The notes beneath the pieces are model-generated. The model searched no databases. It had not been told where the DNA came from and saw only the letters and a list, made by a program, of their open reading frames with translations. The translations under genes and the position numbers were made by a program. Shown one piece after another: positions 20,520 to 32,709 of a stretch of DNA of 32,709 bases (within the stretch, counting starts at the first letter, position 1; the number at the start of each line of letters is the position of its first letter). Source of the DNA: a virus; IMG/VR virus record IMGVR_UViG_3300043399_000301, positions 1 to 32,709 of that record; one strand, given 5' to 3'.

Positions 20520-21620
20520 TTAAGTAAATTCACCTGCGGTTAGACTTTGTACTAAATCTGAGGGAATGTCTGATTGTTGGAAACCGAAGGATGTACCTGT
20601 GGTTAGGTCAGATGGGAGGTGGAAGGATGGGAGTTGCAGTGTCTGATTCAATCCCCAAAATGCTGAGACAGCAGAATCTAGTGCGTCATCGTGCTGCTTA
20701 CCATCTCCTTGGAACTGCTCAAGTTCGGTAAAAAACCAATCATTCCATTGTGCAGAAACAGCAGAAACAACACCAGCCTGACATACAGAGGCAAAAGGTC
20801 TGAAACGTATGAGTTTAGATTTATTGCCTGTTGGATGCAGAATTACATGCCTTCCTGTTTTTTCTGCTAACTTTTGTTGTAAAGCCCTTGCGTATGCTTT
20901 TCCAGCAGCACCAGCGTCAACCGGAATTACGTAAGTAATATCAGAAGGCTCATTCCTGGATAATTCTAGCAAATACTCCTCAACTTTATGAAAACGATCA
21001 CGAAAGCGGTGAGCATGTTCTATGCAATACGAACTACCATCTCTGTTGCGCGACAGAAGAACCGTGGCCGAGAAATCTGGATCTTTATTAACTTCATCGA
21101 CAACACTACCTGCTATATCAAAACCTCTGTAACGCCTACCATGAAAAGGTGGAGTATCCACGATTTGTACCCAAGACCTTTTAAAATACCCCTCAAAGGA
21201 CTTTGTTACATACCAGTTGCCGTACAGTAGTGCTTCTTTTGATTCCCTGTCTTGCCCCTCAAGCCATGCCACGTATTCCGGTTGCCGAGCCATGAGCACA
21301 GGATTATCATACACATTGGCATTTATAAAGGTAAAAGACAGTGGTTGACAACCCGGTACTTGCTCTATAACATCCTCGCGGGTATCGCCCCATATCATTT
21401 GACTATCGCGCATGGTGAACCAACGAGTGACACCGCATTTTTCTGGGTCTGGTAGGCCATCTTCAAGCAAATACCACTCTAACCAATTCGTAAGCCAGTG
21501 TCCCTTACCAGCAGGGTTGCATGTCATACGCATTTTTGGTTTCATCTTAGCTTCTGAGCGAAGCCTTGACATAATATAAATCACTTGAGATTCAGTTACT
21601 TTTATTCGCACTGATTCGTT
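20520..21620 (-). CDS. terL: Large terminase, exon 2 (nuclease half)
   Basis: The C-terminal part of the large terminase. VTESQVIYIMSRLRSEAKMKPKMRMTCNPAGKGHW is the end of the ATPase domain (sensor motif TCNP). It is followed by an RNase H-type nuclease with RGFDIAG, a central PVDAGAAGKAYARAL, and QHDDALDSAVSAF, each carrying a candidate metal-binding aspartate. It packages DNA into the prohead and cuts concatemers. The 5' boundary is approximate: the frame is open back to an in-frame TGA near 21624 and would be joined to exon 1 by splicing of the group I intron. The preceding in-frame residues, INESVRIK, occupy the place of the Walker B motif but show Asn-Glu rather than Asp-Glu. Confidence 0.85.
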   Translation of the reverse strand, partial: NESVRIKVTESQVIYIMSRLRSEAKMKPKMRMTCNPAGKGHWLTNWLEWYLLEDGLPDPEKCGVTRWFTMRDSQMIWGDTREDVIEQVPGCQPLSFTFINANVYDNPVLMARQPEYVAWLEGQDRESKEALLYGNWYVTKSFEGYFKRSWVQIVDTPPFHGRRYRGFDIAGSVVDEVNKDPDFSATVLLSRNRDGSSYCIEHAHRFRDRFHKVEEYLLELSRNEPSDITYVIPVDAGAAGKAYARALQQKLAEKTGRHVILHPTGNKSKLIRFRPFASVCQAGVVSAVSAQWNDWFFTELEQFQGDGKQHDDALDSAVSAFWGLNQTLQLPSFHLPSDLTTGTSFGFQQSDIPSDLVQSLTAGEFT

Positions 21621-21912
21621 AATTCAGCACCGCTTTAGCTGCTTGTGCTTTCACACAAGAATAGACTATATCATGTACTTTCGTACTCCCCCGCTTCGAT
21701 GCACTTGCATCTACGGCTTACGCCTAGTCGTTGAACCTTCTCCTGAACGGAGCTTGGCTGCTGATTGCCCAATCCTGATTGTTTTCAAACCATCACGCTT
21801 ATCGTTTCCAACTACGTTGTGGTCAATCCGGCTCTAAGGGGTTTCCAGCAATTCAAGGGATTTTACAACAGCTACCTAAATCAACTGTTGGGCCTCGTCA
21901 AGTAACTTAGGT
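21612..21912 (-). other. Group I intron in the large terminase gene (ORF-less)
   Basis: On the minus strand the intervening 300 bases carry the group I core elements in order. P: AATTGCTGGAAACCCC (21838-21853). Q: GGGCAATCAGCAGCCAAGC (21752-21770). R: GGTTCAACGACTA (21725-21737). S: ATGATATAGTCTA (21662-21674). A 6-bp P9-type hairpin CTTGTG/CACAAG (21642-21659) follows. A P1 is possible between exon GGCU ending at 21913 and GGCC at 21891-21894, with the usual U.G pair. The layout resembles IA-type phage introns such as those in T4 td and phage Twort. It interrupts the ATPase domain just before Walker B. End points are approximate; no ORF lies inside. Confidence 0.88.
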
Positions 21913-22288
21913 AGCCGCTGATATTTGCCAACCCTGAAAACTGTGTTTGTCTTCTTCGTATTGACAATGCCGAAAAGAAATAGTGCCACCATTTGGATAT
22001 TCAATGACCCCATCTCTTTTCTTTATTTTCAGTTTGTTGCTATACATATCGTTGTGTAAATTCTGAAATGTCTCAAAAATACCTCCCGGCCCGTGAATTT
22101 GTGGCGTTAATCTACGTACACAAAGTCCGCGAAATTTGGGGTCATCGGTGTATTTCAGAAAGTCCATAGCACCTAAGTAACTCTTACCTGCTTTAGCCAG
22201 CACCGCCACCAAAAACGACAACATCCTGTGTCGCGTTTATATACATCTCTTGTTTTCGGCTGGCTGGGCCGATTACTTTATTGCTCAT
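21913..22288 (-). pseudogene. terL: Large terminase, exon 1 (ATPase half) with a frame break in Walker A
   Basis: ATG at 22288 has a good ribosome site (AAGGAGAG) and encodes MSNKVIGPASRKQEMYINAT then QDVVVFGGGAG, but hits TAA at 22193-22195. Skipping one base (T at 22195) continues as KAGKSYLGAMDFLKY and then PNGGTISFRHCQYEEDKHSFQGWQISAA, clearly the Terminase_6N ATPase. So the break falls exactly inside the P-loop (GAGKAGKS). Removing four bases (TAAA) would give the shorter, more usual GGGAGAGKS. It may be a programmed +1 frameshift, a real lesion, or a sequence error. Exon 1 is joined to exon 2 across the group I intron. Confidence 0.8.
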
Positions 22289-22317: not shown

Positions 22318-23391
22318 TCACTTTTGTATTTTACTCAACCTCTCAAGAAACTCCTCTAGTGCATCCAGAGAGTAACACTCAGTAAATCCATTATGTCTAT
22401 GATAATCCTTCATGATTTCTTTTGAAAATCTGTATTTCTTCATTTCTCCGTGAATCTTTTTCTCAGTTCGCACAGCATCAATTCCTCTGGGCATTGGTAT
22501 CTCTACAAGCAACACCGCATCAGCCTTCGCGGAAACACCGTAGTTGGATTTCCTATTGGAAATATCCTTAGCAAATCCAAATTTCAACCACTGAAATCCA
22601 TCTTGGGAGAATTTAAAGAGATATAAATTACTTGGTTTAGTATAATGAGAGTCCCCACAAACCTCGCACGAGTATGAATCTGAAATAGCGTGGTCGATTC
22701 GTAAAGTCTTTTTGTGACCGCATGGCAGTATGTACTCTTTATACCTATCACCAATGTCTTTTACCTCAATCAGACCGTGCGCAGCAGCGGCATTGTAATT
22801 GTTTTCATCAGCACAAACACGGCAAACAACATTACCTTTGATTATCTGAGAATGATGCACTCGTTTAATGTGTCCGCACTTCTTAAATCGTATATCTCGA
22901 AAATATCCTACCAAATCTGTACCAGAACTTTCGTAAACATATCCATTCTTATCTGAAAAGGAATGCAACTTTTCCTCAAAACATTCCGAACAGCGTTTTA
23001 CTTTACTCTCCCTAATATTCTGAGTGGACATTTCTGAAATGTGCCCACAAGGGCGAATATATAGCTTACGACTTGCACTAACATGGTGCAAAAGTGCAAA
23101 TCCTTTGGTGCTGGCTTCTTTGGCATGTACAAGTAGTAGACAGGCCTTGCACATCGTATTATTGCGACGAACATGAGTTGGTTGATAAAATGCAGAATGT
23201 CCACAGGTATCATGAGTGTAGTAATTGTAATTTGGATCACTCGACCTACTCACAAGGGTTAGATTTACATTCTTTGCTTCTTCAGCTTGAGATTTATTTA
23301 CCGGTTTAGTGAAATCCTGTTTTATTGCACCATCAGTAAGGTGTGTAAAAAGACCTTTCTGAAACTGCCCGTATCTTTTGTATGTATCCAT
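22318..23391 (-). CDS. Homing endonuclease: four zinc repeats plus C-terminal GIY-YIG
   Basis: A 357-residue protein between small and large terminase genes. Four repeats of the form C-G-H...C-x2-C are visible: C63-G-H/C81-C84, C115-G-H/C134-C137, C172-G-H/C190-C193 and C224-G-H/C242-C245. They are probable zinc-binding DNA-contact modules. Residues 256-345 resemble a GIY-YIG-type nuclease (LYLFKFSQ...WLKFGFAKDISNRKSNYG with R280, and a glutamate in TEKKIHGEM). The start ATG 23391 has GAGGGA as ribosome site. It shares a structured leader with the endonuclease at 1848-2609. Its position near the group I intron suggests it could promote homing of that intron or of itself. Confidence 0.8.
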   Translation of the reverse strand: MDTYKRYGQFQKGLFTHLTDGAIKQDFTKPVNKSQAEEAKNVNLTLVSRSSDPNYNYYTHDTCGHSAFYQPTHVRRNNTMCKACLLLVHAKEASTKGFALLHHVSASRKLYIRPCGHISEMSTQNIRESKVKRCSECFEEKLHSFSDKNGYVYESSGTDLVGYFRDIRFKKCGHIKRVHHSQIIKGNVVCRVCADENNYNAAAAHGLIEVKDIGDRYKEYILPCGHKKTLRIDHAISDSYSCEVCGDSHYTKPSNLYLFKFSQDGFQWLKFGFAKDISNRKSNYGVSAKADAVLLVEIPMPRGIDAVRTEKKIHGEMKKYRFSKEIMKDYHRHNGFTECYSLDALEEFLERLSKIQK

Positions 23392-23422
23392 ATGTCCCTC
23401 AAAACACCCTCACAAAGAAAAT

Positions 23423-23468
23423 GAGCAGGGAGGTGAGGAATCTCCTTTTCGGTTGGCCGACCTAGCTC
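23423..23468 (-). ncRNA. Structured leader element of the second homing-endonuclease gene
   Basis: A 46-nt element folding as GAGC/GCTC outer stem, GGT/ACC hairpin, linker GAAAA, and GGAG/CTCC hairpin. It is homologous to 2646-2692, with three compensating changes in the outer stem and one in the second hairpin. It begins 7 bases after the -10 TATAAT, so it would be at the very 5' end of the transcript. Confidence 0.6.
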
Positions 23469-23475
23469 TTTTCAT

Positions 23476-23489: not shown

Positions 23490-23876
23490 TTAAGCAACCT
23501 TCTGGTCTTCGTTGTTAATCATCTTTAGACTAAACACTGGAGTATTAGTTTCGTTAACTTCTTCGGCTTCTGATTCATCGTAGCGATAATCAAACGTATC
23601 TAGCAAAAGCTGTCTATATGTTTGAATCAACAAAGCAGCGGATTTCAACTTGTTCTGATCTGCTGATTCTGGATTTTCAAGAATCTGAGCAGCAGCTTGG
23701 ATAGCTTTAGCTTGCAAAGGCTTGAACTTGCGGACAAGACTCAACAACTCAGCAGAACGAATCTCTCTGTTCGTCAGCGGCTTATCCAACGGCCCTCGCT
23801 TGGGTCTACCAATAGGATTGCCACTAATCCCCGGTTTCCATGCTGGATTACCAGCACCTCGTTTGTCTTCTTGCAT
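23490..23876 (-). CDS. terS: Small terminase subunit-like protein (DUF5681 type)
   Basis: A 128-residue protein starting with a Gly/Pro/Arg-rich segment, GNPAWKPGISGNPIGRPKRG (residues 8-27), the hallmark of the DUF5681 family that sits just upstream of large terminases. The rest is helical (NREIRSAELLSLVRKFKPLQAKAIQAAAQILEN), suitable for ring assembly. The start ATG has AGGAG 5 bases upstream. It recognises packaging sites in related phages. Two kinds of insertion, the endonuclease gene and the intron, separate it from an intact terL. Confidence 0.75.
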   Translation of the reverse strand: MQEDKRGAGNPAWKPGISGNPIGRPKRGPLDKPLTNREIRSAELLSLVRKFKPLQAKAIQAAAQILENPESADQNKLKSAALLIQTYRQLLLDTFDYRYDESEAEEVNETNTPVFSLKMINNEDQKVA

Positions 23877-27921: not shown

Positions 27922-28674
27922 ATGCAGCAACCAGCGCGTAAGACTCGTAAAGAAAAAGCTCAGGCAGGTACACAACGAGTAATAAAAGAAAAGTTCATGG
28001 AACAAAGGGAAGAAGCTGTAAAGTCAAAACCTTTGGTTGCTATGAACAGTAAGCAACAAGAATACATTGACCTATTAGATGAAAAACCAGTAGTAATAGC
28101 TACAGGTTGGGCTGGTACAAGTAAATCTTATATTCCTGCTGTTATGGCTGCTGATCTGTACAAGCTAGGTCAAATAGACAGAATCATGCTTACCAGACCT
28201 GCTATCAGTAACAGTCAATCTTTAGGTTTCTTTAAAGGTTCAGAGACAGAAAAACTTAGTGTATGGTTAGGTAGTGTCCTACCTATCTTTAAAGATAGAC
28301 TTGGTACTGCTATGTTTGAACTTGCAGTTAGTACAGGAGATATAACCTTCGTTCCTTTGGAAGTTGTCAAAGGTTTAAGTCTTAACAGAACATTCTTCAT
28401 CTGTGAAGAAGCAAGTGACTTGACTAAGGATGAAGTAATTAAACTTATTACTCGTATGGGTAAAGAAAGTACACTTGTTCTAGCTGGAGATATTCTTCAA
28501 TCAGAACTTAAAGAAGACTCTGGTCTTGTTTGGTTAACTGAGCATCTAGAGAAGCATACTAATCTAAAGAAGAACTTTGGTTGGGTTGACTTTGATAGTG
28601 TAGACCACATTGTTAGAAGTCAAGCTGTTAAAGACTTTATTGTTAGTCTTATTCGAGATAATAAAAAGAATTAA
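27922..28674 (+). CDS. phoH: PhoH-like ATPase
   Basis: A 250-residue protein. Residues 1-40 are a basic, charged extension. Walker A is at 62-69 (GWAGTSKS), LTRPAISNSQSLGFF and the PhoH-typical 'P-L-E-V-V-K-G-L-S-L-N' are in the middle, Walker B-like FFICEEASDL at 158-167 has Cys-Glu-Glu in place of Asp-Glu, and LAGDILQSE and VRSQAVKDFI are near the C terminus. PhoH-like proteins are ATPases widespread in phages; their role is debated. The ribosome site is AAGGAGG with a hairpin just before it. It is upstream of the ClpP-like gene. Confidence 0.85.
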   Translation: MQQPARKTRKEKAQAGTQRVIKEKFMEQREEAVKSKPLVAMNSKQQEYIDLLDEKPVVIATGWAGTSKSYIPAVMAADLYKLGQIDRIMLTRPAISNSQSLGFFKGSETEKLSVWLGSVLPIFKDRLGTAMFELAVSTGDITFVPLEVVKGLSLNRTFFICEEASDLTKDEVIKLITRMGKESTLVLAGDILQSELKEDSGLVWLTEHLEKHTNLKKNFGWVDFDSVDHIVRSQAVKDFIVSLIRDNKKN

Positions 28675-28709
28675 TAAACTAACTAATAAATAAACTAGAA
28701 AGGAACCTT

Positions 28710-29450
28710 ATGACATATAAACTTATTCAAAATATCCCTAACAGAAATATCAAACCTACTTGTTCAGACGATGATGAAGACAACGAAGGTGTACCTAAGT
28801 CAATGCTGTATTTACCTTACTTTGAAGCTCAACGTACTTCTCGTAAGATTACAGCTTACTTGGATGAAAATGTAAAAGAACCTAGGTACTATAGACAACT
28901 CATTCAAGCTATGGATAGCCTATCCGAAGATGACATAGTAGAAATATCTGTTAACAGCTATGGTGGTTATCTTGATGGTGCTATCGCTCTGTTAAACGCT
29001 ATGGATAACTGCGAAGCTCAAGTGCATGTTAAGCACGAAGGAATGGCAGCTAGTGCTGCATCTTTGATTGTACTTGCTGCTCCTAGTGTCTTTGTATCTC
29101 CTAATGCAACCTTGATGATTCACAGTGCTACATTCGGTAGCTTTGGTAAACAAACAGATGTGCTAGGTCATGCAGCATTCGTAGACCAGAAGGTAAAGAT
29201 GCTTATGTCTAAAGTATATAAGGACTTCTTAAGCTCTGATGAATTTGCAGAAGTACTCATGGGTAGAGAAATGTGGATGCACTACGATGAAATTGTAGCT
29301 AGGCTTGAGAAACGACATGCTTTGCAAGAGAAAGCTCATAAGCAAGAAGAAAAAGAAATCAAGCAAGCAATGAAAGAACTAGAACAAGAAAGTAAACAAA
29401 CTAAACCTAGAAGTTCAAGAAATAAACCTAAAGTACAACCTGAAGGTTAA
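28710..29450 (+). CDS. clpP: ClpP-like serine protease
   Basis: A 246-residue protein. After an acidic N terminus the ClpP core is clear: EISVNSYGGYLDGAIALLNAM, the nucleophile in GMAASAASLIVLAAP (S115) and the histidine in LMIHSATFGSFG (H138). The usual aspartate position after 'ER-D-M' reads GREMWMHYDEI, so the third catalytic residue may be Glu187 or D193. The tail from about residue 205 is Lys/Glu-rich and not part of ClpP. Ribosome site AAAGGAACC. It may process capsid proteins or act on host proteins; the separate XkdF protease makes the second more likely, but this is inference. Confidence 0.85.
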   Translation: MTYKLIQNIPNRNIKPTCSDDDEDNEGVPKSMLYLPYFEAQRTSRKITAYLDENVKEPRYYRQLIQAMDSLSEDDIVEISVNSYGGYLDGAIALLNAMDNCEAQVHVKHEGMAASAASLIVLAAPSVFVSPNATLMIHSATFGSFGKQTDVLGHAAFVDQKVKMLMSKVYKDFLSSDEFAEVLMGREMWMHYDEIVARLEKRHALQEKAHKQEEKEIKQAMKELEQESKQTKPRSSRNKPKVQPEG

Positions 29451-32492: not shown

Positions 32493-32548
32493 TGTAACTA
32501 GGTTACAAAGTGAAGGTATTTTGAATTTATTTTAGGTAACTTGGGTAC
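32493..32548. promoter_or_regulatory. Pair of operator-like sites upstream of the minus-strand module
   Basis: Site 1, TGTAAC-TAG-GTTACA (32493-32507), is a perfect 6-bp palindrome. Site 2, GTAACTTGGGTAC (32536-32548), matches its core at 11 of 13 positions. They are 42 bases apart, four helical turns, as for cooperative binding of a repressor. Confidence 0.55.
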
Positions 32549-32554
32549 ATTGTC

Positions 32555-32709
32555 GACAGCTGTACTAGGTGCCTCACGTCTTCGACGTTCGACAGCTGTA
32601 CTAGGTGCCTCACGTCTTCGACGTTCGACAGCTGTACTAGGTGCCTCACGTCTTCGACGTTCGACAGCTGTACTAGGTGCCTCACGTCTTCGACGTTCGA
32701 CAGCTGTAC
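32555..32709. repeat. 36-bp tandem repeat array (4.3 copies, runs off the edge)
   Basis: The unit starting GACAGCTGTACTAGGTGCCT and ending CACGTCTTCGACGTTC is repeated without change at 32555, 32591, 32627 and 32663, with a partial copy from 32699 to the window end. It contains ACGTC/GACGT and ACAGCTGT palindromes. No spacers are present, so it is not a CRISPR array. Confidence 0.85.

Follow-up and report, generated by a model that had tools for sequence, protein, structure and literature searches.

How is a phage gene read into protein when, taken literally, it ends within the P-loop codons of its own product? The question is raised by the gene for the large terminase subunit (terL) on the minus strand of the window (here, the whole 32,709-nt stretch of virus record IMGVR_UViG_3300043399_000301 that was analyzed). 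The ATG frame of this gene, which starts at 22288, reads MSNKVIGPASRKQEMYINATQDVVVFGGGAG and ends after FGGGAG at a TAA codon, and the next frame continues past the TAA with KAGKSYLGAMDF (KAGKSYLG). The initial annotation of this DNA described the break and its position correctly, but missed two other features of the same gene, namely, a second insert, ACCTAAG, located between WQISAA and LLDEAQQ, and a group I intron 22 nt downstream of that insert. Hence terL contains three interruptions (Table 1): its N-terminal piece stops after ...WQISAAT, and the C-terminal piece resumes near 21600. When the four coding parts are joined, a 490-residue TerL is obtained, in which Terminase_6N is matched in one stretch with 74 bits, compared to 21 and 24 bits in the fragments. 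By our estimate, the chances are about even that the short inserts are micro-introns of 2-11 nt that leave the terL mRNA, most likely, through the action of the resident group I ribozyme.

Table 1. Features of the terL region (window positions) and, in the last six lines, loci of an unrelated TerL family. Slashes mark insert borders.
Feature	Position	Strand	Remarks
Probable small terminase subunit gene (terS)	23490..23876	-	DUF5681, slightly below cut-off
int-alpA RNA	23407..23472	-	RF02996, leader of the endonuclease gene
Free-standing homing-endonuclease-like gene	22318..23391	-	between terS and terL; weak domain scores
terL exon 1	22195..22288	-	MSNKVIGPASRKQEMYINATQDVVVFGGGAG and first base of Ser; purifying selection on the 26 codons that precede the break
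Putative micro-intron 1, AAAG	22191..22194	-	in the Walker A codons, GGCU/AAAG/CAGGUAAG; removal would give GGGAGSGKS
terL exon 2	21913..22190	-	remainder of Walker A through WQISAA
Putative micro-intron 2, ACCTAAG	21906..21912	-	just before Walker B, GGCU/ACCUAAG/UUACUUGACGAG; removal would give SAALLDEAQQ
terL exon 3, 22 nt	21884..21905	-	LLDEAQQ and initial base of Leu; 3' end is CAACAGU
Group I intron, 285 nt	21599..21883	-	Rfam RF00028, 69.5 bits, E 7e-16
Internal guide GCUGUUG	21866..21872	-	pairing with GGCU also possible in a register one base away (A-GCU)
terL exon 4	20520..21598	-	LTESQV... to stop; Terminase_6C nuclease domain
L170, unrelated TerL family	near 2000		
L185, unrelated TerL family	near 1170		
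L209, unrelated TerL family	near 1990		
L210, unrelated TerL family	near 1980		
L213, unrelated TerL family	near 2000		
L218, unrelated TerL family	near 1990		

Inserts in the terL genes of relatives

TerL searches of IMG/VR returned relatives with 61-76% identity, along with more distant ones, and the layout of the window is common to seven of these, which come from several metagenomes and differ in the lengths of their inserts. Because the P-loop break occurs at the same place in all seven, a sequencing error in the window, one of the explanations considered initially, is excluded. Comparison of terL at the break site, which had been proposed as a check, shows inserts of 2, 4 or 5 nt across the eight loci: AAAG in the window, L011 and L013, AG in L007, L009, L012 and L085, and AATAG in L134. 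In the window, the parse is GGCT/AAAG/CAGGTAAG, one base away from the TAAA of the initial annotation. The inserts preceding the Walker B motif span 6-11 nt (ACCTAAG in the window, and AACTAGAAAG, GACTAGAAAG, AACTAAAAG, ACCTATATAAG, TAACAGAAAG, AGATAG and TGATAG in the relatives), and L134 contains a third insert of 10 nt, CGAAGGCT/ATCTACTCAG/TACTCC. Altogether, there are 17 inserts in eight loci, 8 in the P-loop, 8 before Walker B and one at RRLTPQ, and removing them gives back the canonical GGGAGSGKS, ALLDEAQQ and RRLTPQIHG, respectively. All 17 shift the frame or introduce a stop, and the one before Walker B in L012 contains no stop codon. In an ORF comparison of 15 records, clear inserts were found in terL only. 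A pattern match in L143 turned out to be a chance hit in another terminase.

Nine relatives (L002-L006, L010, L014, L167 and L168) have neither the inserts nor the group I intron that follows CAACAGU in the window. Several insert-free relatives contain group I introns elsewhere in terL, and in L002, L004, L006 and L014, such introns lie within or beside the P-loop codons; in phage Pollock (L140), a group I intron is located in or beside the P-loop codons of an ATPase similar to N4 gp24. No micro-inserts were seen near the related introns of Pollock, nepoznato, PAP02, Pa_WF01 and Str-PAP-1. Among isolated phages, the nearest TerLs are less than 60% identical, with no broken match among the 60 matches listed, and no prophage relatives were found in GTDB genomes.

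Strong purifying selection acts on the terL codons next to the break. When all pairs of the eight loci are pooled, the 26 codons that precede the break have a pN/pS of 0.35, the eight codons that follow it (up to the next ATG) one of 0.05, and the stretch between the P-loop and Walker B sites one of 0.18, values that come from a comparison in which synonymous sites are near saturation. The C-terminal protein is nearly identical in L010 and L012, of which only L012 has the inserts, and the 26 codons before the break differ between these two by 10 synonymous and 0 amino acid changes. It appears most improbable, then, that terL is truly inactive, decaying after endonuclease damage while a helper or another terminase takes care of packaging. 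Such decay is what the DNA suggests when read literally, and the window and most of the records are fragments. However, selection of this strength acts before as well as after the break, with the eight codons up to the next ATG included, P10 of the intron covaries (see below), and the eight loci are spread across a patchy tree. Furthermore, no second TerL was found in the 75.9-kb record behind L008 and L134, the ends of which overlap by 22 nt within the intron, as in a circular assembly. An intact terL elsewhere in the genome, which according to the initial annotation would have spoken against its reading, was found neither in the virus's own record nor in the larger ones. The few-base scar envisaged there is right insofar as the insertion is real, but a plain repair scar is insufficient, given that the codons before and after the break are under strong purifying selection and that P10 of the intron covaries.

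A boundary motif that ignores the reading frame

GGCU precedes all 17 inserts, and each of them ends in AG. A consensus is recovered with two or three alignment windows per insert, and U/..AG/ is the one window that fits all insert sites; at the P-loop, this parse yields Ser, matching the relatives with insert-free P-loop codons. The alternative parse GGC/TAAA/GCN, which suits the P-loop, puts Ala where the relatives have Ser, and it breaks down at the RRL site of L134. The codon phase differs at each of the three insert sites, the insert being located after the first base, between codons or after the second base (phases 1, 0 and 2). The P-loop glycine codon is GGC in all eight broken loci and in none of the insert-free ones, and GGCU is also found at the Walker B site in 8 of 8, even though the residue preceding that insert is Met, Ala or Gly. 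A motif that disregards the reading frame in this manner points to a feature of the RNA or DNA rather than to a ribosomal one. The AG end is shared by the inserts and most copies of the group I intron.

These observations bear directly on translational recoding, whereby the ribosome would cope with an uncorrected mRNA at the GGC-stop of the P-loop in the style of prfB or T4 gene 60. At all eight P-loop sites, UAA or UAG directly follows GGC; T4 gene 60 provides a precedent, and in the case of Streptomyces phage Hau3, a bypass has been suggested for its terminase (PMC5009743). We nevertheless consider recoding unlikely. The variable phases and lengths of the inserts disfavor both programmed frameshifting and bypass: a place that gains 2, 4 or 5 nt, depending on the locus, demands different shifts, so that the programmed +1 frameshifting suggested initially would have to be +1, -1 or +2 in different relatives, and every locus has a second break and L134 a third, in three codon phases, which would require three shifts in L134. 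Neither the P-loop nor the Walker B site in this family offers matching take-off and landing codons for a protein of native length. At the P-loop, tRNA-Gly has no matching codon with which to re-pair (a move from GGC to GCU mismatches the middle base), and a hop from GGC to GGN loses two P-loop residues; the Walker B site has neither a constant codon before the stop nor a landing codon, and the L012 insert lacks the stop itself.

The other point in favor of recoding comes from an unrelated TerL family (native FGGGAGGGKTALGCYW), in which the P-loop is broken in 17 of the 80 loci compared (L170-L249). Seven kinds of break occur, with +1, +8 or +10 nt, and in every kind, a stop immediately follows a Gly codon (GGN-stop). 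No group I intron was found near the breaks or in two larger records, and several of the breaks have a GGY landing codon such that a hop from GGY to GGY, as in gene 60, would yield the native protein; others do not fit such a hop. In the kind represented by L213, the same junction is occupied by an HNH-like gene. The breaks in this second family imply that terL P-loops are hit repeatedly, and phages may have several ways of surviving such breaks.

The resident group I intron as candidate catalyst

The third interruption of the window terL is a group I intron, predicted to be self-splicing, with the catalytic core and the P7 region present. Its borders, CAACAGU/UGAUUU...AAUAAAAG/UAACUG, were set by comparison with intron-less relatives. 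In P1, the 5' exon sequence CAACAGU is paired with the guide GCUGUUG, with the usual U.G, and the intron ends in AAAAG; in P10, which is formed with UAACUGAA, 7 of 8 positions pair, and compensatory changes are observed among the loci. The retention of P1 and of a covarying P10 indicates that splicing of the terL mRNA is under selection. The searches of the apparently circular record and of two others returned no group I intron apart from that in terL, and none was detected outside terL in the larger records at the thresholds used. A second group I intron in terL of L013 (5287-5544, at the SANV/YDNP site) is not accompanied by micro-inserts.

We consider it probable that the inserts are removed at the RNA level. 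In the mechanism proposed here, the P-loop break would be a 4-nt micro-intron, one of two in the window terL, and excision of the GGCU/..AG/ micro-introns would produce the continuous terminase. The guide strand of the group I ribozyme would bind the GGCU 5' flank, and the ribozyme would cleave 3' of the U and ligate the flanks at the border that lies 3' of the insert's final G. Engineered group I ribozymes cut out segments as long as 28 nt in vitro, and in E. coli, they remove single nucleotides from mRNA (PMC4094466, PMC6155759). The substrate rules of this trans-excision reaction, a U before the segment, a G at its end and a length of no more than 28 nt, hold for all 17 inserts of 2-11 nt. 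Because the preceding U and the terminal G are group I rules, the resident intron is the best candidate for the catalyst, and we rate this role at, or somewhat short of, an even chance. The more specific proposition that this is natural trans-excision splicing, in which a resident ribozyme removes several non-autonomous introns of 2-11 nt from the same essential phage mRNA, is a serious but tentative one, with the balance tilted slightly against it.

The details of pairing are less clear-cut. GGCU could pair with A/G-GCU, a conserved site that overlaps the intron's own guide in a register displaced by one base, with U-A in place of the usual U.G at the cut in all loci except L011, where the U is opposite G; by chance, 17 of the 64 4-mers ending in U would find a conserved guide site that close. 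Comparison by eye revealed no consistent P10 pairing with the 3' flanks of the micro-introns. This imperfect pairing leaves some room for a different catalyst, that is, for removal from the mRNA by a host or phage nuclease together with an RNA ligase, or by another trans-acting ribozyme. A single boundary motif in 17 of 17 inserts is in line with such an activity, and a protein pathway is conceivable because an RNA_ligase-family gene (PF09414) is present in two of the four larger records (G001, 28337-28819; G004, 55189-55677). RtcB, however, was not found in the records, no group I intron that could act from outside terL was detected in those searched at the thresholds used, and the U and G at the borders obey group I rules. 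Together with the perfect co-occurrence of the inserts with one specific group I intron, this makes a different catalyst rather unlikely.

If confirmed, removal by the resident ribozyme would bring intron length down to as little as 2 nt, less than in any natural intron known, and would mean that in nature a group I ribozyme serves splice sites beyond its own, so far achieved only by engineering. It would also reveal a route by which a selfish cassette becomes essential, the gene being unreadable without the ribozyme. Because terL genes of this kind look broken, they would be missed or called pseudogenes in annotation.

A probable endonuclease cassette and its counterparts

The intron that follows CAACAGU is present in all eight loci with inserts and in none of the nine insert-free loci. 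On the TerL tree, the insert/intron state requires 6 changes, 5 of which are forced by well-supported branches, so the insert and intron unit is patchily distributed. The co-occurrence could stem from homing co-conversion because all the parts lie within about 300 nt.

The initial annotation linked the break to homing endonucleases, and this link is borne out: each of the eight broken loci contains a gene at the terS/terL junction (the L085 contig starts inside it), whereas three relatives with an intact P-loop, L003, L005 and L010, have no gene there. In the window, the junction gene encodes zinc-binding-like repeats and a C-terminal GIY-YIG-like MUG113/T5orf172 domain, with weak scores; a search for relatives of this endonuclease found none. 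The junction genes are HNH or GIY-YIG-like in seven loci, most of them GIY-YIG-like with zinc-binding-like repeats and that of L085 HNH, and no domain was found in the L012 product. Besides the int-alpA RNA listed in Table 1, matches to this RNA were found at 2631-2695 of the window (below the gathering score) and at 3015-3080 of L009; it may be a leader element of homing-endonuclease-like genes because such a gene follows it immediately in 3 of 3 cases. A second homing-endonuclease gene (HNH_3 and AP2 domain) is located among the structural genes of the window at 1848-2609, and a tandem repeat (TAVERRRREAPS...) occupies 32498-32707 at the contig end.

Given these neighbors, the inserts might be regarded as scars of homing-endonuclease repair that are tolerated through chance leakiness, with the GGCU and AG ends marking a cut site rather than splice sites. 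Homing-gene-like ORFs do occupy the junction in all eight loci, and 22 nt separate the Walker B insert from the intron insertion site downstream of it; GIY-YIG enzymes, for example I-TevI, cleave at close to such a distance upstream of the site into which their intron inserts. Nevertheless, the motif is constant although the endonucleases vary by locus (GIY-YIG-like, HNH or unassigned), chance scars would not need to disrupt translation in 17 of 17 cases, and leakiness would be required at two or three sites simultaneously. Tolerated scars are, accordingly, very unlikely in our assessment. On the best reading of the gene order and motifs, the homing-endonuclease gene, the micro-introns and the group I intron would form one cassette, in which the inserts probably shield the carrier's own terL from endonuclease cutting and terL would depend on the ribozyme to be read.

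Parts of such an arrangement are familiar from other phages. In the collaborative homing described for cyanophage psbA, a free-standing endonuclease gene lies beside an intron-bearing essential gene, an organization to which the terL interruption adds micro-inserts at further sites. Also comparable is the T4 system of MobA and the 50-nt bypass insert of gene 60 (reviewed in PMC5009743): in both cases, a homing-endonuclease gene adjoins an essential phage gene with a frame-disrupting insert, and the gene 60 insert is thought to protect against the nuclease and to be masked during expression, much as proposed here for terL. Unlike in gene 60, however, the terL inserts are 2-11 nt long and are distributed over two or three sites, with three codon phases among them, have GGCU/..AG/ ends and a resident group I intron, and lack matched take-off and landing codons. 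Group I introns in the terminase large-subunit gene, with small exons and exon skipping, are also known from Bastillevirinae (PMC11878797), and in the parts of that report considered here, micro-inserts of a few nucleotides, as in the window, are not described. Our literature searches found no case of natural trans-excision splicing or of micro-introns. A further parallel is engineered trans-excision splicing by the Pneumocystis and Tetrahymena ribozymes (PMC4094466, PMC6155759). Whereas in terL the guide pairing is weaker than in these designed ribozymes and P10 is not seen, the candidate substrates are of the same kind, namely, short mRNA segments preceded by U and ending in G.
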